From Candidatus Fimenecus excrementigallinarum (GTDB taxonomy: Bacteria; Bacillota; Clostridia; Oscillospirales; Acutalibacteraceae), in NCBI GenBank assembly GCA_018714805.1, contig DVMW01000024.1:1-64000 (forward strand): DNA of 64,000 nucleotides, given 5' to 3'. The notes under the pieces were generated by a model. It was not told the origin of the DNA and did no database searches. It saw only the letters and a program-made list of their open reading frames with translations. Both the position numbers and the translations under genes were made by a program. Shown here piece by piece: positions 54,588 to 64,000 of the stretch (the first letter of the stretch is position 1; every line of letters begins with the position of its first letter).

Positions 54588-56258
54588 TTACTCGAATACG
54601 TACACCCGCGCTTCGTACGGGCGCATGGGGCAGACGTGCGCCTTGCCGGGCGCGTCTTGGTAGTTGCACAGCGCCAGCTTCCCCTTGGTCAAATCAAAGC
54701 CGTCCGGCACGCGGAACGTGCGCGTCTCCTCGGCAAAGGAGCAGATGACAAGCGCCTTGCGGCCCTCGTATTCGCGCTCGTAGCAGTAGAAGTCCGTGCT
54801 GTTGTGGTCGTGCTCTTTGTAGCTGCCGTAGATGAACAGCTTATCCGCCTGGCGAACGGCAAGGAGCTTGCGGTAATAGTGGAGGATGGAATCCGGGTCC
54901 GCCTCGGCCTCGGCGACGTTAATCTCCTTGTAGCTCGGCGCAACGCCGAACCACGGCTCCACCGTCGAAAAGCCCGCGTAGTCGCTCGCGTCCCACTGCA
55001 CCGGCGTGCGCGCGTTTTCGCGGCTGGTGCGGTTGGCAATCTTGAGATACGCCGCGTCCGAAAACCCGAATTTCTTAAAGATTTGCGCGTTGTTGAAGGT
55101 CACGACGTCCTTGAACTGGTCGAGCCGGTCGAGGTGGTTGTTAATCATCCCGATTTCCTGCCCCTGGTAAATGAACGGCGTGCCGCTCTGGAAATAGCAC
55201 ATCGTCGCCAGCATCTTGCCGCTTTCCTTGCGAAACTTTTCGCTGCCGTAGCGGCTGATGATGCGCGGGTGGTCGTGGTTCTCGAGATACAGCGCGTTCC
55301 ACGACTTGCCGTACAGGTCCTCCTGCCAGCGCGTGAACGCCTTTTTCATTTTTTTCAGGCTGAAGGGGACGGCGATGGTGTCGGTCATAAAGCAGTCCGC
55401 CTGCATATGGTCGAAGCTAATCATCATGTCGAGCTCCCGGTCGTCGCCGGCGGTAAAGGCCAGCGCGTCCTTGGAATTCGTCATCGGCGATTCGCCGACC
55501 ATGAAGCAGTCGTAGTCCTTGCAAATGGCCTTGCGGAACTGCGTGAGGTATTCGTGGATGTGCGGGCCCTTGTTGTAGTGCTCAATGCCCGTTGCAATCG
55601 GCAGCGGGAAGCCGTTGGGCAGGCCCTCGCGCTTGGAGATGAAGGTGATGACGTCCTCGCGGAAGCCGTCCACGCCCATATCCAGCCAGAAGCGCATGAT
55701 GTTGATGACCTCTTCGCGCACCTTCGGGTTGTCCATGTTGAGGTCGGGCTGCTTTTTGGCAAAGACGTGCAGGTAATATTCCCCGCGCACGTCGTCATAC
55801 TCCCACGCGCCGCCCTCAAAGGTCGACAGCCAGTTGTTGGGCGGCTTCTTGCCGTCTTTGCCTTTACCTTTGCGCCAGATGTAATAGTCGCGGTACGGGT
55901 TGTCGTCGCCGCCCTTGCGGCTTTCCCGGAACCACATATGCTCGTCGGAGGTGTGGTTGACGACCAGGTCCATGAGCACCTTCATCCCGCGCGCGTGCGC
56001 GCCGTCGAGCACCTGCTTGAACAAATCCAAATCGCCGTAATCGGGCGAAATGCTGCGGTAGTCGGCAATGTCGTAGCCGTAGTCGGCGTTCGGCGAGGGG
56101 TACAGCGGCGAAAACCAGATGGCCGTCGCCCCGAGGCTTTTGATGTAGTCGAGCTTGTCGAGCACGCCCACAAGGTCGCCTATCCCGTCGCCGTTGCCGT
56201 CCTTAAAGGAGCGCGGCCAAATTTGATAGATGACCGCCTCTTTGTACCAATCCGACAT
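54588..56258 (-). CDS. malL: GH13 alpha-glucosidase (oligo-1,6-glucosidase type)
   Basis: A 556-aa cytosolic enzyme releasing glucose from isomalto- or malto-oligosaccharides. Starts WYKEAVIYQIWPRSFKDGNGDGIGDL (calcium loop DGNGDGIGD). It has LMDLVVNHTSDEH, the nucleophile Asp in GVDGFREDVI, the acid/base Glu in FMVGESP and the transition-state Asp in LENHDHPR. The segment GTPFIYQGQEIGMIN is typical of MalL/DexB. Specificity between alpha-1,6 and alpha-1,4 is not resolved. ATG 56258 follows GGAGAG; the open frame extends 14 codons further without homology. Confidence 0.94.
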   Translation of the reverse strand: MSDWYKEAVIYQIWPRSFKDGNGDGIGDLVGVLDKLDYIKSLGATAIWFSPLYPSPNADYGYDIADYRSISPDYGDLDLFKQVLDGAHARGMKVLMDLVVNHTSDEHMWFRESRKGGDDNPYRDYYIWRKGKGKDGKKPPNNWLSTFEGGAWEYDDVRGEYYLHVFAKKQPDLNMDNPKVREEVINIMRFWLDMGVDGFREDVITFISKREGLPNGFPLPIATGIEHYNKGPHIHEYLTQFRKAICKDYDCFMVGESPMTNSKDALAFTAGDDRELDMMISFDHMQADCFMTDTIAVPFSLKKMKKAFTRWQEDLYGKSWNALYLENHDHPRIISRYGSEKFRKESGKMLATMCYFQSGTPFIYQGQEIGMINNHLDRLDQFKDVVTFNNAQIFKKFGFSDAAYLKIANRTSRENARTPVQWDASDYAGFSTVEPWFGVAPSYKEINVAEAEADPDSILHYYRKLLAVRQADKLFIYGSYKEHDHNSTDFYCYEREYEGRKALVICSFAEETRTFRVPDGFDLTKGKLALCNYQDAPGKAHVCPMRPYEARVYVFE

Positions 56259-56290
56259 ATCGTTCTCTCCTTTTTGGCTGAATTTTCTAT

Positions 56291-56319
56291 ATCGTACCAC
56301 ATTTTTTTATGAAAAACAA
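56291..56319 (-). promoter_or_regulatory. malL promoter
   Basis: Minus strand TTGTTT (56314-56319), 17-bp spacer, TACGAT (56291-56296). Confidence 0.65.
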
Positions 56320-56484: not shown

Positions 56485-56556
56485 CAGTTCTTAATTAGAT
56501 GCATTTGACCGCCGTGCCGGCACCGACGGTACGGCGGCATACGGGAGGGCTTTTGC

Positions 56557-56871
56557 ATGGAAAACGCGCTGAATATGATTGTGGAAGCCGACCGCGCGGC
56601 CCGCGACCGCGTGGCCCAGGCGCGCGCCCGCCGCGAAGCGCTGACGACGGCGCTCGCCGAGCAGAAAACGGCCATCGACGCCGCGCACGACGAAAAGGCG
56701 CAGGCGCAGATTGACGCGGCGCGTCGGCAGAAGGCGGAAAAGCTCGCCGCCGCGAGCCGGCAGATTGAGGAGCGGGAAGCGCGCGTGGCCAAAGCGCTGG
56801 ACGCGCGGTTTGCCGCCGGGCACAAGGCGTGGGAGGACGCGTTTTTCGAGGCCGCCGTCCAAAACGACTGA
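56557..56871 (+). CDS. V/A-type ATPase peripheral stalk subunit G/H
   Basis: A 104-aa, almost wholly helical, charged protein (MIVEADRAARDRVAQARARRE ... KAEKLAAASRQIEEREARVAKAL) forming a coiled coil, as expected of the G (H) stalk that pairs with subunit E. Its length and its place as the first gene of the operon fit. ATG 56557 follows GGGAGGG. Sequence is low in specific motifs, so assignment rests partly on context. Confidence 0.8.
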   Translation: MENALNMIVEADRAARDRVAQARARREALTTALAEQKTAIDAAHDEKAQAQIDAARRQKAEKLAAASRQIEEREARVAKALDARFAAGHKAWEDAFFEAAVQND

Positions 56872-56908
56872 AGCGGGGGAAAGGAAAAAAGCGGAAAGGA
56901 GCGGGCGC

Positions 56909-57961
56909 ATGAAAAAGATTGCAAGCCTTTCGGCGGGCGCGCTGACAGCCAAGGCGCACGCCATGTACGGCGAAATCCTGGGCGACGACGCCTACCGGGA
57001 AATGCTCGGCTGCCACAGCATTTCGGAGCTCGCCGCTTTTCTGCGCGACCGCACGGCGTATGCGTCGGTGTTTTCCGACCTTGCCCGCGCGCGCATCCAC
57101 CGCGCCCGGTTCGAGGCGCTGGTGCGCAAATATTCGATGACGCGCATTGCGTCGCTTGCCGCCGCGGAAAAGGCGCTCGGCGGCTCGCTTTACAAGACCC
57201 TGATAATGGATTACGACGCCGAGCTGCTTATCACCTGCGCCGAATACCTGGGCTCGGAGGGCGTCGGCGAGTCCATGCAGTTTGTTCCCGACTTTTTCCG
57301 CCGCAATTCGGAGCTGGACGCCGAAGCGCTTTACCGCGCGCGCAACATGGACGAGATGGACGCCGCGCTCGAGGGCACGCCGTATGAGCGGCTTTTGGAC
57401 GGGTTTCGCGCGGGCGCGCCGTTTTCCGTGCGCGCGTACGAGCTTTTGGTCGACGAATGCGTCAACACCAGAAGCGAGGCGCTCATTCGCGAGCAGTATA
57501 CCGGCGAAACGCGCAAGGCGCTGCTTGCCCATCTGCGTATGCGCGCGGACATGAAAACGGTGGAAAGCCTGTACCGCATGAAAACCTATTACCCGCAGGC
57601 GGATATGCGCCGCACCGGGGTGCTGTCCAATACCGTGACCGCCTTTACACCGACCGAGCGCAACGCGCTGCTGGAAAGCGCGGACGTGCCCGCCCTGACC
57701 GAGACGCTGCGGCATACGGTCTACGGCAAGGCGGCGGCGCTGTTTTCCGACGGCGTGATTGAGCACAAAACGGGCGAGGCGCAGCTTTTGGCCTGCACGC
57801 ACGCGCTGCGGTACTCGACCGTGCCGCAGATGGTGCTGATGGGCTTTGTCGGCATCCAGCAAAACGAGATGCACAACCTGATTCATATCGCGGAAGGGCT
57901 TCGCTACGGGCTTGCGCCCGAGGAAATCGGCGCCTTTCTGGTGACCAGGGCGCGCGTGTGA
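56909..57961 (+). CDS. V/A-type ATPase subunit C (central socket)
   Basis: A 350-aa helical protein of the V0d/AC39 family that links the central rotor to the membrane ring. Features: AGALTAKAHAMYGEILGDDAYREML, SELAAFLRDRTAY, RYSTVPQMVLMGFVGIQQNEMHNLIHIAEGLRYG, the last being the typical C-terminal ExxNL. ATG 56909 lies 38 nt after the stop of the G gene, with GGAAAGGAG upstream. Confidence 0.9.
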   Translation: MKKIASLSAGALTAKAHAMYGEILGDDAYREMLGCHSISELAAFLRDRTAYASVFSDLARARIHRARFEALVRKYSMTRIASLAAAEKALGGSLYKTLIMDYDAELLITCAEYLGSEGVGESMQFVPDFFRRNSELDAEALYRARNMDEMDAALEGTPYERLLDGFRAGAPFSVRAYELLVDECVNTRSEALIREQYTGETRKALLAHLRMRADMKTVESLYRMKTYYPQADMRRTGVLSNTVTAFTPTERNALLESADVPALTETLRHTVYGKAAALFSDGVIEHKTGEAQLLACTHALRYSTVPQMVLMGFVGIQQNEMHNLIHIAEGLRYGLAPEEIGAFLVTRARV

Positions 57962-57976
57962 GAGGGAGGGCGGCTT

Positions 57977-58921
57977 ATGAGAAAAAAGAAATTTGCAGTC
58001 CTCAGGCTGCTTGCCGACGCTTCGGAAATCGACGCGGCCTGCCGGGCCCTGCTGCAATGCGGCTTTTGTCCGCAGTTTGACAGAGAAACCCCGGCGGCGT
58101 CTTACGGCGCCGAGCGAGGGGACGGCGGGGAAAACCCCTACGCCGCCGCGCTCTCCCGCCTGCAATTCGTGCTGCATACCGCGGGGCAGGCACCCCTGCC
58201 GGCCGATATGTTCGCCGACCTGCCGGGGGACTGGCGTGAAAAAACCGACGCGCTTTACCGCACGTGCCGGGCGCTGCAGACCGAAAAGACCCAGCTGCAG
58301 GAGCAGGCGGAGGCCTGCGTACAGGGGCAGAAAAAGCTGGAGCTGTTCGGCGACTTGCCGGTGGATTTGCAGGACGTGGCGGAGTGCGCGTTTATCCGTG
58401 TCCGGTTCGGGCACCTGCCCGCGGAAAGCTACCGGCGGATGCAGGCGCTGTACGGGGACGACCCCTATGTAGAATTTTTCCCCTCCTTTTTTGACCGCGA
58501 CGAAATATACGGGATGTATTTTGCACCGCGCGACCGGGCGGAGCGCATCGACGCGATTTTCGCCTCGATGCTGTTTGAACCGATTGCGATTCCCTCGCTG
58601 TCGGGCAGCACCGCCCAAATCGGCGTGGAATTTGAACGCAGCCTGCAAATTCTGGAAACGGAGCTTGCCGACGTGGGACGGCGGCTGGACGCGTTTTTTG
58701 CCCGGGAAAAGGAAACGGCCTGCGCGCTGTACGCCGCGCTCGCCGGCGCGGAAAGGCTGCTTGCGCTGCGGGCCTACGCAACGCGCTGCAAAGACGCCTA
58801 TATTTTGACCGGGCTGCTTCCGGCGGACCGTCTGCAGGCGCTTCTGGACGCGCTTGCGCCCTGCCGAAGCGTTTATGTGGTCCAAACGGGCAGCGTCAGG
58901 CAGCGTCCCGCAACGGCCTGA
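57977..58921 (+). CDS. Free-standing paralogue of the subunit I N-terminal domain
   Basis: A 314-aa soluble protein homologous to the first half of the subunit I encoded next. Parallel motifs are FIRVRFGHLPAESYRRMQ (vs FVKVRFGHMPKESAERLQ) and YGMYFAPRDRAERIDAIFASMLFEP (vs WGVYFAPVDRLDEVDGIFAFLLFEP). It stops where the membrane domain should begin. No TM helices are seen and the frame ends cleanly with its own stop. It has a ribosome site (GAGGGAGGG) and intact reading frame, so it is unlikely to be a decaying duplicate. In subunit I this domain is the collar arm that binds the E-G stalks; a second copy could serve another stalk or regulate assembly (inference). Confidence 0.85.
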   Translation: MRKKKFAVLRLLADASEIDAACRALLQCGFCPQFDRETPAASYGAERGDGGENPYAAALSRLQFVLHTAGQAPLPADMFADLPGDWREKTDALYRTCRALQTEKTQLQEQAEACVQGQKKLELFGDLPVDLQDVAECAFIRVRFGHLPAESYRRMQALYGDDPYVEFFPSFFDRDEIYGMYFAPRDRAERIDAIFASMLFEPIAIPSLSGSTAQIGVEFERSLQILETELADVGRRLDAFFAREKETACALYAALAGAERLLALRAYATRCKDAYILTGLLPADRLQALLDALAPCRSVYVVQTGSVRQRPATA

Positions 58922-58958
58922 GCCTTTTGTAAAAATCTTCTAAGAAAAAGGAGATACC

Positions 58959-60902
58959 ATGGCGATTGAAAGAATGAAGCTGATGAAAATCAGCGGCGCG
59001 CTGGAGCAGCTGCCGGCCGTCAGCGAGGCGCTGTGCGAAAGCGAAAGCTTCCAGCCGGACGCCGCAGCCAAATATATCTCTTCCTCCATGGGCTTCCTCC
59101 CGTTCGCCGACGAGAACCCGTACACGCAGAAGCTGGCGACGCTGACGGATTTTGCCGCTTCCCTGGGGTTCCCGCTGGAGGTGCAGGCGGCTTCGGTCGC
59201 CGCGACGGACGACGCGGACGACGCGTACATCCGCGCGGTAGAAGCGCGCGCGGCCGAGCTTTTGGAAACGCGCCGCATTTTGACCGAGCAAAAAGAGGTC
59301 TGTGAGGACGGCATCCGCAAATATTCGCATTTTACGGGGCTGGATTTGGATTTGGACGGCATCTCCGCGTGCGAATTCGTCAAGGTGCGCTTTGGGCATA
59401 TGCCCAAGGAAAGCGCGGAGCGGCTGCAAACGGTTTTCAAGGATTATCCGTACCTGCTGTTCTGCCCGTGCTCGGAGGACAAGACCGATTACTGGGGCGT
59501 TTACTTTGCCCCGGTCGACCGGCTCGACGAGGTGGACGGCATTTTCGCCTTTTTGCTGTTCGAGCCCTTTTCCGTTCCGGGCGCGGCGGGCACCGTCGAC
59601 GAGGTGCTTGCGGAAATTCGCAAAAGCATCGCCATTTTAGACGGGCAGCTCAGCGAGAACAAGGACCAGCTGCGCGCGCTCTGGAAAGAGGAGCAGGCGC
59701 ATTGCAACCAGCTGTACACGGGGCTTTTGCGCAAGGACGCGATTTTTTCCCTGCGCAGCTACGCGCTGCACAACGAGCGCAGCTTCATGCTGGTGGGCTT
59801 TGTCCCCGAAAGCCGCGTACACAAGGTGGCGGCGCGGCTCGACGTGCTGGAGGGCGTTTCGACCGAGGTCGGCGAGCCGCCGAAAAGCGACAAGGTCTCC
59901 GTGCCCGTCGAATACAAGAAGCGCGGACCTTTGTACCGCGCGCTGGTCGCGCCGTACCGCTATTATATTGAGATGTACGGCTCGCCGGGCCGCAGCGACG
60001 TGGACGTCACGCCCTTTGTCGCCTTTACCTACACCATTCTGTTCGGCATTATGTTCGGCGACCTCGGGCAGGGGCTGGTTGTCAGCCTTGCGGGGCTTCT
60101 CATGTGGAAGCTCAAGAAAATGGAGCTCGGCAAAATCCTGATTCCCTGCGGGCTGTCGTCGGTGGTGTTCGGCTTCCTCTTCGGCAGCGTGTTCGGCTTC
60201 GAGGACCTGCTCGACCCCGTTTACCACGCCATGGGCCTTCCCGGCAAGCCGTTTTCCGTTATGGACAGCATCAACACCGTGCTGCTTATCGCGATTGGCA
60301 TCGGCGTTGTGCTGATGGTCGCCGCCATGCTCATCCACGTGTACGCGAGTCTGAAGCGAAAACAGGTGGGCGAGGCGCTTTTCAGCCAGAACGGCGTGGC
60401 GGGCATTGTGCTCTATTTGATGGGCGTCAACCTCGCCTCCGGCTTTATGGGCGGCCCGGCCCCCGTGCCGACGGGCCTTTGCGCTGCGCTGCTGGGCGTG
60501 TCGGCGGTGCTTGTGTATATCAAGGAGATTCCCATAGGCCTTATCGACCGCCATCCCGACTGGAAGCCGGACAGCATAGGCGACTTCCTGCTGCAAAACT
60601 TCTTTGAGCTTATCGAATATCTGCTGTCGTATTTGTCCAATACGCTGTCCTTCCTTCGCGTGGGCGCGTATGTGCTCGTACACGCGGGCATGATGATGGT
60701 CGTTTTCTCGCTCGCGGGCGAAAGCGAAAACCTGTTCGTGATTGTGCTCGGCAACATCCTGGTGATTGTGCTCGAGGGGCTTTTGACGGGGATTCAGGTG
60801 CTTCGTCTGGAGTATTACGAAATGTTCAGCCGGTTTTATGAGGGCGACGGCGTACCCTTTACGCCGATTTCCCTGAAAAAAATACAAAAGCATTCCAATT
60901 GA
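58959..60902 (+). CDS. ntpI: V/A-type ATPase subunit I (stator a-subunit)
   Basis: A 647-aa protein with a soluble N-terminal arm (about 1-330) and a C-terminal membrane part of seven to eight helices. VDVTPFVAFTYTILFGIMFGDLGQG and LSFLRVGAYVLVHAG include the essential Arg of the ion half-channels (LRVGAY). Length and motifs are normal for the family. ATG 58959 follows AAAGGAG. Its N-terminal half is duplicated in the gene upstream. Confidence 0.96.
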   Translation: MAIERMKLMKISGALEQLPAVSEALCESESFQPDAAAKYISSSMGFLPFADENPYTQKLATLTDFAASLGFPLEVQAASVAATDDADDAYIRAVEARAAELLETRRILTEQKEVCEDGIRKYSHFTGLDLDLDGISACEFVKVRFGHMPKESAERLQTVFKDYPYLLFCPCSEDKTDYWGVYFAPVDRLDEVDGIFAFLLFEPFSVPGAAGTVDEVLAEIRKSIAILDGQLSENKDQLRALWKEEQAHCNQLYTGLLRKDAIFSLRSYALHNERSFMLVGFVPESRVHKVAARLDVLEGVSTEVGEPPKSDKVSVPVEYKKRGPLYRALVAPYRYYIEMYGSPGRSDVDVTPFVAFTYTILFGIMFGDLGQGLVVSLAGLLMWKLKKMELGKILIPCGLSSVVFGFLFGSVFGFEDLLDPVYHAMGLPGKPFSVMDSINTVLLIAIGIGVVLMVAAMLIHVYASLKRKQVGEALFSQNGVAGIVLYLMGVNLASGFMGGPAPVPTGLCAALLGVSAVLVYIKEIPIGLIDRHPDWKPDSIGDFLLQNFFELIEYLLSYLSNTLSFLRVGAYVLVHAGMMMVVFSLAGESENLFVIVLGNILVIVLEGLLTGIQVLRLEYYEMFSRFYEGDGVPFTPISLKKIQKHSN

Positions 60903-60920: not shown

Positions 60921-61388
60921 ATGACCGTATGCTTTTATGTTCTGTTGCTTGCAGCCCCCGCGGCGCTTCTTATGACGGCGTTCGCCGCCGTTCGCAAACG
61001 CGGGAAGGGCCGCGCCGCAAAACGCGCTTTGGGTACGAACCTCGCCGTGTTCGGCGTGCTGGTCGTGCTGCTGTCGGTTCTGTCCTTTAACGTCTTTGCG
61101 GCGGAGGAAACGCCCGCTGCGGCGGACGCGGCCGTGCAGACGCAGGAGGCGGCCGAACCGGCGGCGGACGGGTCCTCTAAGGGCCTCGGCCTTTTGGCGG
61201 CGGGCCTTGTAACGGGCCTTGCGGGCATCGGCGGCGGCATTGCGCTGGCGGCCGGCGCGCCGGCGGCGATTGCGGCGACGGCGGAAAATCCGAAGTCCTT
61301 CGGTAAGTCCCTTATTTTCGTGGCGCTGGGGGAATCCATCGCGCTGTTCGGCGTGGTCATTTCCATCCTTATCATCAACGAGCTGTAA
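60921..61388 (+). CDS. V/A-type ATPase membrane ring subunit K (extended form)
   Basis: A 155-aa protein. Two N-terminal hydrophobic helices (first ~55 aa, second ending VLSFNVFA) are followed by an Ala/Glu-rich ~30-aa loop and one c-type hairpin: LLAAGLVTGLAGIGGGIALAAG and LIFVALGESIALFGVVISIL. Ion-binding Glu is at residue 138 (GES). The Gln usual for Na+ sites in the first hairpin helix is not seen (GIGGG), which leans to protons but is not decisive. Similar extended K subunits occur in Clostridia. ATG 60921 follows TTAGGAGG. Confidence 0.9.
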   Translation: MTVCFYVLLLAAPAALLMTAFAAVRKRGKGRAAKRALGTNLAVFGVLVVLLSVLSFNVFAAEETPAAADAAVQTQEAAEPAADGSSKGLGLLAAGLVTGLAGIGGGIALAAGAPAAIAATAENPKSFGKSLIFVALGESIALFGVVISILIINEL

Positions 61389-61400
61389 CGGGGCGGCGGT

Positions 61401-61706
61401 ATGCGACTGTTTTTAGTCAGCGACAAGGTTGACCCGGTCATTGGTATGCGCTTAGCCGGGGTCGAGGGCGTCTGCCTGCGCGAGCCCGAAAGGCTTGCCG
61501 AGGCGCTGGAAACGGCGGCCGGCACCGCGGACATCGGCGTGCTGCTGTACACCGCCGGCGTGCGCGAGAGCTGCCCGGAGACCGTCGCGCGCCTGCAGCG
61601 GCAAAACAGGCCGCTGCTTTTGGAAATTCCGGACGGCGAAAGCGCGAGCGGAAATTCCGGCAGCATTACCGAATACATTCAGGAAGCGGTCGGCATCCAT
61701 CTGTGA
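61401..61706 (+). CDS. V/A-type ATPase subunit F
   Basis: A 101-aa rotor subunit (MRLFLVSDKVDPVIGMRLAGVEG; middle IGVLLYTAGV; C-terminal SITEYIQEAVGIHL matches the conserved SI..Y.REAIG end). It binds subunit D in the central stalk. It begins 12 nt after the K stop with GGGGCGG as a modest ribosome site. Confidence 0.9.
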   Translation: MRLFLVSDKVDPVIGMRLAGVEGVCLREPERLAEALETAAGTADIGVLLYTAGVRESCPETVARLQRQNRPLLLEIPDGESASGNSGSITEYIQEAVGIHL

Positions 61707-61732: not shown

Positions 61733-62338
61733 TTGGATATTCCGAACGGCAAAATCCATGTTTTCCTGGACGCCGTCCAGGCTTTGGCGAACGAGGCGTG
61801 CGACAAAATCGACCGGGAAACGGAATCGGTGCGCGCGCAGCGCCTGCAGGCGCTCGAAAGCGAGGCCAAAAAGCGCAGCGAAGCGTTCGCGGCATATGAA
61901 ATTTCCCGCATCGACGCGGACTTCAACCGGGAAATCTCCGATTTGGAGGAGGCGTCGCGCAAGCGGCTGACCGAACGCCGCGACGCGCTGGAGGCGCAGG
62001 TGTTTGACCGGGTGCGCGCGCGGCTTGCGCGCTTTACCGCGTCCGACGCGTACCGGACGTTTTTGGAAGCCAGCGCCAAAAAGGCGGTGGCGGCCGTCGG
62101 CGGCGGCGACGTCACCGTTTATCTGCGCGAAGCGGACCTGCCGCTTGCGGACGCGGTCCTTGCGGCGTGCAGCGGCAAGGCGAGCATAGAGGCGGATTCG
62201 TCCATCGCTCTCGGCGGGCTGAAGGTGCGCTCCGGCGCGGGGCTTTTGGCGGACGACACGCTCGACGCGCGCGTCGAGACGCAGAAAGCGCGGTTCCTGT
62301 CTGTTTCCGGGCTTTCCCTGGAGGAGGAGCAGGCATGA
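61733..62338 (+). CDS. V/A-type ATPase subunit E
   Basis: A 201-aa peripheral stalk subunit: long N-terminal coiled coil (about 10-110, rich in E, R, A) and a C-terminal globular domain with VYLREADLPLADAVLAAC, IALGGLKVRSGAGLLADDTLDARVE, typical of E (GG..v.....g.i.v.NTld.R). Starts at TTG 61733 behind AGAGGTGAGAG. Its stop overlaps the start of subunit A by 4 nt (ATGA). Confidence 0.9.
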   Translation: MDIPNGKIHVFLDAVQALANEACDKIDRETESVRAQRLQALESEAKKRSEAFAAYEISRIDADFNREISDLEEASRKRLTERRDALEAQVFDRVRARLARFTASDAYRTFLEASAKKAVAAVGGGDVTVYLREADLPLADAVLAACSGKASIEADSSIALGGLKVRSGAGLLADDTLDARVETQKARFLSVSGLSLEEEQA

Positions 62339-64000
62339 CGTCTTATCAAATCTACGGCATCAACGGGCCGGTCGTCACGGTGCGCGGCGAAACGCAGCTG
62401 CAAATGATGGAAACGGTGTATGTCGGCGACGCGCGCCTTATCGGCGAGGTTATCGGCCTGACCAAGGAACGGACCACCATCCAGGTTTATGAGGAGACCG
62501 CCGGCCTTACGGTCGGCGAGCCGGTTTATGCGACGGGCAGCGCCATGCGCGTGCTGCTCGGGCCCGGCCTTCTGGGCAATATTTTCGACGGCATCCAGCG
62601 CCCCCTGCCGGCGCTGGAAACGAAGTTCGGCGCCTTTATCGGCCGCGGCGCGCAGTTTTCCCCGCTGGACACCGAACGGACGTTTGACGTGCACGTCTGC
62701 GTGCATCCCGGCGAGCGCCTCTGCGGTGGCGACGTGTACGCCGTCTGCCCGGAAACGGACGCTGTCGAGCACCGCGTGATGCTCGCGCCCGACCTTTGCG
62801 GGACCGTGCAAAGCGTGCAGCCCGACGGGGCGTACCGCGTGCTGGACACCGTGGCGGTCCTTTTGACCGACGACGGGCGCGAGGTGGAGCTCAATTTGAC
62901 GCAGGCCTGGCCGATTCGCACCCCGCGGCCCGTACAAAAGCGGCTGCCCGCGGACCGGCCGCTGATTACCGGGCAGCGTGTGATTGACACCGTTTTCCCC
63001 GTCGCCAAGGGCGGCGCGGCGGCCATACCCGGCGGCTTCGGCACCGGCAAGACCATGACGCAGCACCAGCTTGCCAAATGGTGCGACGCGGACATCATTA
63101 TCTATGTCGGCTGCGGCGAGCGCGGCAACGAAATGACGCAGGTGCTGACCGAATTTTCGGAGCTGACGGACCCGCGCACGGGCAAGCCCCTGCTTGACCG
63201 CACGGTGCTTATCGCGAACACCTCCAATATGCCCGTCGCCGCGCGCGAGGCGTCCATTTATACCGGCATTACGCTGGCGGAATATTACCGCGACATGGGC
63301 TACCACACCGCGCTGATGGCGGACTCGACCTCCCGCTGGGCCGAGGCGCTGCGCGAAATTTCCGGCCGCTTGGAGGAAATGCCCGCCGACGAGGGCTTCC
63401 CGGCGTACCTGCCCTCGCGCCTGTCGGAGTTTTACGAGCGCGCCGGCCGGACCGAGACGCTCGGCGGCCGCGAAGGGTCCGTCACGCTTATCGGCGCCGT
63501 GTCCCCGCAGGGCTCTGATTTTTCCGAGCCCGTCACGCAGAACACCAAGCGCTTCACGCGCTGCTTCTGGGCGCTTGACAAGTCGCTTGCGTACGCGCGC
63601 CATTATCCGGCCATCAACTGGACGCTGTCCTACAGTGAATACACCGGCGAGCTGCAAAACTGGTACCGCGACAACGTTTCGCCCGAATTTTCCGGCGACC
63701 GCGACGAGCTGTGCGCCCTTTTGCAGGAGGAAAACGCGCTTTTGGAAATCGTCAAGCTCATCGGCGCGGACGTGCTGCCCGACGACCAGAAGCTGGTTAT
63801 GGAAACCGCGCGCGTCATCCGCGTCGGCTTCCTGCAGCAAAACGCCTTCCATGCCGAAGACACCTTTGTTCCGCTCGACAAGCAGTTTTGCATGATGCAT
63901 ACCATTTTGCACCTGCACCACCGCGCCAGGGAGGTCGTCGCGCGGCAGATTCCCATTTCCGCGCTGCTGAAGACCGGTATTTTCGACAAGCTCATCAAAA
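62335..64000 (+). CDS. ntpA: V/A-type ATPase catalytic subunit A (cut by window end)
   Basis: The frame is open from ATG 62335 to the window edge (555 codons of an expected ~590). It starts YQIYGINGPVVTVRG, with LGPGLLGNIFDGIQRPL, the P-loop IPGGFGTGKTMTQHQL (about 231-246), catalytic Glu in GCGERGNEM, MADSTSRWAEALREISGRLEEMPADEG, and SEPVTQNTKRF. This is the ATP-hydrolysing subunit. Subunits B and D, needed for a complete enzyme, must lie beyond the window. It overlaps the E gene stop. Confidence 0.97.
   Translation, partial: MTSYQIYGINGPVVTVRGETQLQMMETVYVGDARLIGEVIGLTKERTTIQVYEETAGLTVGEPVYATGSAMRVLLGPGLLGNIFDGIQRPLPALETKFGAFIGRGAQFSPLDTERTFDVHVCVHPGERLCGGDVYAVCPETDAVEHRVMLAPDLCGTVQSVQPDGAYRVLDTVAVLLTDDGREVELNLTQAWPIRTPRPVQKRLPADRPLITGQRVIDTVFPVAKGGAAAIPGGFGTGKTMTQHQLAKWCDADIIIYVGCGERGNEMTQVLTEFSELTDPRTGKPLLDRTVLIANTSNMPVAAREASIYTGITLAEYYRDMGYHTALMADSTSRWAEALREISGRLEEMPADEGFPAYLPSRLSEFYERAGRTETLGGREGSVTLIGAVSPQGSDFSEPVTQNTKRFTRCFWALDKSLAYARHYPAINWTLSYSEYTGELQNWYRDNVSPEFSGDRDELCALLQEENALLEIVKLIGADVLPDDQKLVMETARVIRVGFLQQNAFHAEDTFVPLDKQFCMMHTILHLHHRAREVVARQIPISALLKTGIFDKLIK

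Follow-up and report, generated by a model that had tools for sequence, protein, structure and literature searches.

The V/A-ATPases of Thermus thermophilus and Enterococcus hirae have the same core subunits, with one subunit I. In the passages cited here, A-type and V/A-type enzymes are described with one arm and two EG stalks (PMC3899036, PMC5758568, PMC10382590): the A-type stator consists of two EG filaments joined by the aN arm (PMC3899036), and the T. thermophilus and E. hirae enzymes carry two asymmetric EG stalks on one arm, with no mention of a free arm in those passages (PMC5758568, PMC10382590). One cited passage attributes a distortion of the Thermus enzyme to its uneven pair of stalks (PMC5758568), and another sets this arrangement against the three symmetric stalks found in eukaryotes (PMC10382590), where the third stalk contacts subunit C (PMC6131620). 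According to the same cited passages, the aN domain and subunit C are alike in fold but not in sequence (PMC3899036), and subunit C is without a homologue in A- and F-type ATPases, or unique to the V-type (PMC6131620, PMC3899036).

The 64,000-nucleotide stretch analyzed here (the window) contains a V/A-ATPase operon with a further gene, which we call hI. In subunit I, and in its eukaryotic counterpart subunit a (PF01496; the arm corresponds to aNT), the arm and the membrane half are encoded in the same gene, whereas hI is a separate gene without a membrane half that matches the whole soluble arm of I. Among the papers listed in our searches of open-access literature (capped at 10 to 20 per search, subscription journals lying outside the scope), none describes a free arm of this type in its title or abstract opening.

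The hI gene and its operon

The operon order is G, C, hI, I, K, F, E, A, B, D, and the end of the window falls inside it. On the forward strand, a G-like subunit of 104 aa (56557..56871), named from its position and without a Pfam family above the cut-off, is followed by the C subunit (AC39/d-type, 350 aa, 56909..57961; PF01992, E 3.5e-41), by hI (314 aa, 57977..58921), which was identified from homology, frame and dN/dS as a free-standing soluble arm paralogous to subunit I, and by a complete subunit I with arm and membrane half (647 aa, 58959..60902; PF01496, E 4.4e-23). The K (c-ring; 155 aa, 60921..61388), F (101 aa, 61401..61706) and E (201 aa, 61733..62338) subunits come next on the same strand and were named from position and look. 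The forward-strand A subunit (62335..64089; PF00006) runs past the window end at 64000 on the same contig, where B (64104-65477; PF00006) and D (65515-66141; named from position and look) lie beyond the window. A search of the whole genome, a 97% complete draft, gave no PF00006 protein besides the operon A and B, so no F-type ATPase was found in it, and the hI operon appears to be the only rotary ATPase operon of this organism. Subunit I (PF01496) is single copy in the whole genome, and a protein search of the genome found a single E gene. A divergent alpha-amylase family gene (54588-56300, reverse strand; PF00128, E 5.8e-150) adjoins the operon in the window, and an alpha-amylase family gene also does so in 19 of the 20 other same-genus stretches that were read.

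The hI frame is intact, with an ATG start and a TGA stop. It is preceded by a purine-rich, ribosome-site-like stretch (GAGAGGGAGGG), starts 15 bases past C and ends 37 bases short of I, which has a ribosome-site-like stretch of its own (AAAAAGGAG). The intact mid-operon frame with its own putative ribosome site and in-frame stop, as put forward in the sequence-only reading, was thereby confirmed at 57977-58921. The protein stops at residue 314 and the C-terminal membrane half with the ion-path helices is absent; its highest 19-residue hydropathy is 1.36, compared with 3.07 in the membrane half of I, which leaves it without a membrane helix. The position-wise GC content of hI is near that of its operon neighbours (GC3 0.75 versus 0.77-0.84 in the six other genes measured). 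A long frame on the opposite strand (56495-58885) overlaps hI; such frames are frequent in GC-rich DNA, and homology and dN/dS point to hI and so speak for the forward frame. Two other origins were rejected: a chance frame, by homology, conservation and dN/dS, and an assembly artefact, by orthologues in four other genomes.

A BLASTP comparison of hI with the neighbouring subunit I gave 35% identity over 202 aa (E 5e-42), and when profiles of six hI sequences and of 14 I arms were aligned with each other, they matched across 302 columns at 27% identity (E 3.7e-56). Since the profile-profile alignment spans 302 columns, hI is, judged by sequence, the whole soluble arm of subunit I and not a fragment. 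Together with the hydropathy maximum, this alignment upholds the earlier proposal that the 314-aa gene is a paralogue of the soluble arm alone, lacking membrane helices. The likeness is uneven along the window hI: its distal-lobe segment (about residues 130-211; 58364..58609, forward strand) is 45% identical to the distal lobe of I, compared with 13-29% in the other segments, where the label distal lobe follows by analogy from the cited part of a description of yeast aNT (PMC3470569). Having diverged so strongly from I outside the distal lobe, the window hI need not bind everything that I binds. This bias is not general, as far as sequence identity can tell, since free arms of other lineages keep the first segment about equally well or nearly so: the first segment and the distal lobe are 69% and 70% identical to I in G191, 55% and 48% in G657, and 44-47% and 50-51% in G851 and G754.

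Curated family models barely recognize hI. Pfam, PF01496 included, gave nothing for it at E up to 1, and the NCBIfam subunit I models scored 32.8 and 22.5 bits, far under their cut-offs of 670 and 766. The reference structures for subunit I were those of M. ruber (3rrk) and T. thermophilus (5gar, 5y5x). An arm profile built from I and hI matched T. thermophilus I in the PDB at E 1.4e-4, most strongly over the last third, and 3rrk only weakly (E 0.078), amid unrelated coiled-coil proteins. The three-dimensional arm fold of hI would thus be carried over from its homology to the I arm. Eukaryotic subunit C (Vma5), which is soluble, has two lobes and a coiled coil and lies beside aNT, would resemble hI in fold and place, as extrapolated from the I arm, but differs in that its sequence is unlike the I arm whereas hI is a plain paralogue of I. 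A phmmer search of the PDB with hI gave just two unrelated matches and no subunit C at E up to 1, and none of the arm-profile matches at E up to 0.1 was subunit C, so no sequence match to C was seen in these database searches.

Conservation and selection within the genus

With hI as query, an arm match was obtained in 27 of the 36 same-genus genomes searched, the window's own included. Only 8 of these 27 gave two arm matches and so carry hI, which means that the enzyme works without it. The operon was read in 21 of the 27 (all except G005, G008, G009, G014, G018 and G024), and all free arms of the genus sit between C and I. Orthologues with 64-74% identity occupy the same operon place in four genomes (G026, G019, G020, G012), and a C-terminal tail is common to the five close copies, the window's included. 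The hI of G006 is about 31% identical to that of the window, and the arms of G003 and G025 are about 47% identical to I versus 27-28% to the window hI. In the latter two genomes hI overlaps I by 11 bases, an arrangement suggestive of coupled translation.

The dN/dS values of hI (NG86) were 0.198, 0.259, 0.156, 0.153, 0.175 and 0.195, from six of eleven possible pairs that are not independent of each other, and YN00, which returned 16 of 18 values, gave 0.18-0.29 for hI. The corresponding NG86 ranges were 0.023-0.132 for the I arm and 0.034-0.114 for the I membrane half. These substitution rates indicate that hI is under purifying selection, less tight than that on I, and that it evolves faster than the I arm. 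The sequence-only reading had held that the gene is probably used, and this judgement agrees with its being kept in place across species, with dN/dS values well under 1 and with its repeated gain (see below). It had also named two findings that would speak against it. The gene is not unique to this genome under relaxed selection, given four orthologues and dN/dS values of 0.15-0.26, nor is it a decayed, C-terminally truncated duplicate, its frames being intact and under purifying selection, though hI evolves faster than the I arm.

On a species tree of the genus built from A, the I membrane half and C, the presence of hI needs two changes, which could be one gain and one loss or two gains, some forks of this operon tree being open. 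Arm trees place the G003 and G025 arms apart from the window clade; an AU test does not reject a single clade of these arms with those of the window (p 0.213, or 0.355 without G006).

Free and built-in arms in other lineages

Arm-profile searches were carried out on overlapping samples of genomes from the family (300 genomes, 184 with a match at E 1e-3, best 7 candidates per genome scored), the order (394 genomes, 113 with a match at E 1e-12), the class (391 genomes, 136 at E 1e-15) and the phylum (398 genomes, 54 at E 1e-10), with the best 5 candidates per genome in the last three. Free arms were found in at least 14 genomes from five genera and three families, and hI is absent from most genomes carrying the operon. 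The survey of related operons for the gene and its synteny, suggested earlier, gave a uniform picture: in all 14 genomes the free arm has C and I as its immediate neighbours on either side (the C of G851 was confirmed by Pfam), and its frame is intact in each. Outside the window genus, a free arm adjoins I in another genus of the same family (G191, the single genome of its genus in the sample), in two genera of another family of the order (G657 and G622), and in one genus, g337, of another family of the class (G754 and the near copies G851 and G962).

On the arm tree the hI label takes 5 changes, each of them forced by starred branches. The hI of G191 pairs with its own I at 100/98, and this copy seems to have a duplicated leader. 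The free arm probably had four or more separate origins by these trees, counted as the window genus, G191, G657 with G622, and genus g337; the window genus enters this count once, in keeping with the AU tests. Apparently separate origins could also be produced by gene conversion with I. Long branches and unusual composition, also for the window hI, drew warnings from the tree program, and the tree left out near copies by thinning (L034_hI, L034_I, L040_I, L046_I, L050_I, L052_I) as well as two sequences with doubled lobes (L077_I, L086_I).

The search was rerun on the 33 other family genomes that had at least two arm matches. They comprised the free arm of G191, double arms in G138 and G319, a doubled lobe in G066, and 29 genomes whose second match is either weak (E no better than 2.8e-9, for the most part within 630-700 aa frames) or, for G071 and G127, broken up at contig ends. 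The closer reading excluded G193 (462-aa frame) and G292 (130-aa frame, E 1.3e-4). Candidates cut by a contig end were not accepted as free arms (G204, G167, G193, G265, G140, G502, G689 and G880), nor was G923, which is cut by a contig end going by its coordinates; G700 apparently has a single I whose alignment fell into two parts. G1138 has a 344-aa frame near a contig end, where the reference proteins matched nothing.

Second arms also occur within subunit I itself. Seven of the 11 genomes of genus g104 gave a match, and all seven have two tandem arms in a single subunit I frame of 941-984 aa; in the four that were read (G138, G319, G362, G359), the chain is about 940-947 aa (L075 5210-8050; also L076, L097 and L098). 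The reference I matches twice over the distal-lobe part in the I of G066, G584 and G1266 (773, 730 and 803 aa, respectively). In genus g182 a second distal lobe lies within the I membrane half, ahead of the final conserved helices, and is inserted between parts matching the window I up to about residues 487-523 and from about residue 530. A second match was obtained there in G441, G488, G542, G677 and G681, and the frames of G677, G441 and G596 (weak match only) were read (L081 3518-5827, L082 3102-5411 and, weak, L088 4836-7172). These bacteria have thus recurrently added an extra arm, or at the minimum an extra distal lobe, either free or built in. The fused forms, being in other lineages, may work differently from hI.

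A different arrangement was seen in G1028, where subunit I seems split in two frames (L092 5402-6286 and 6292-8115). The 294-aa frame combines the first half of the arm with a tail (residues 229-287) that bears a weak likeness to V-ATPase G (Pfam E 0.1), the 607-aa frame has, by eye, two copies of the second half of the arm ahead of the membrane part, and the small G-like frame just upstream of C is not present in the frame list. Either arm and G are naturally fused here, or the assembly or the frame is at fault.

A putative place in the stator

We consider it rather probable that hI is an accessory stator subunit, permanently in place, that offers further docking for EG stalks and possibly for a third stalk. 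The arm-coding half of the I gene would have been duplicated and the free arm retained as a separate polypeptide made beside I. It would fold like the I arm, with two lobes and a coiled-coil hairpin between them, and, by analogy, be placed in the collar that separates the A3B3 head from the membrane part. There its lobes could bind EG in addition to those of I and anchor a further stalk to the collar, possibly at the third position that is empty in two-stalk enzymes, a task that subunit C performs in eukaryotes. A third stalk would need no extra E or G gene, as eukaryotes reuse the same subunits. The repeated gain of arms, in some cases within the subunit I chain, suggests that the stator is modified in a way that recalls the additional stator support in eukaryotic V-ATPases. 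Among the roles raised by the sequence-only reading (a changed stator, an assembly factor or an inhibitor), the fusion of a double arm to I in g104 favours a permanent stator place over a free inhibitor or a transient assembly factor, while we infer, at this stage, that hI belongs to the complex, binds EG and affects stalk number.

Taken further, and more tentatively, some bacterial V/A-ATPases might have three peripheral stalks, subunit C having been re-invented independently through repeated arm duplication; the free arm, the fused double arm and the extra lobe might then represent routes from a two-stalk to a three-stalk enzyme, and subunit C itself might have arisen in this manner out of the subunit a arm. 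The repeated gain of a second arm makes it testable how a rotary motor acquires a stalk, what effect a third stalk has on the uneven two-stalk rotor cycle, and whether subunit C could have come from the subunit a arm.

It is less likely that hI acts in assembly or in reversible regulation. As a soluble decoy of the arm, it would bind EG or V1 ahead of I or in place of it, keeping V1 off the membrane part or blocking the enzyme. Such a role would fit a protein that is soluble and separate, evolves faster than I and, within the genus, is absent from most genomes that have the operon, and a cited passage reports that eukaryotic subunit C leaves both sectors on disassembly and inactivation (PMC10313074). 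The second arm fused to I in all seven matching g104 genomes and the second distal lobe built into the g182 membrane half are, however, permanent places that are hard to square with a transient decoy; since these are other lineages, hI itself may still act as one. A division of labour, in which hI partly replaces the I arm so that two arms split the docking of two EG stalks without an extra stalk, is improbable: the window clade keeps the distal lobe best, as if mainly that job had been retained, but the I arm is still whole and under stronger constraint than hI, and the free arms of other lineages conserve their first segment and their distal lobe to a similar degree. Compared with a permanent stator place, it is very improbable that hI is a non-functional by-product of repeated tandem duplication in slow decay. 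Arm duplications do recur, hI is patchy and its dN/dS is above that of I, but the frames are intact in every genome with a free arm (14/14), purifying selection was seen in six of six pairs tried, and the five close copies have retained a common C-terminal tail.
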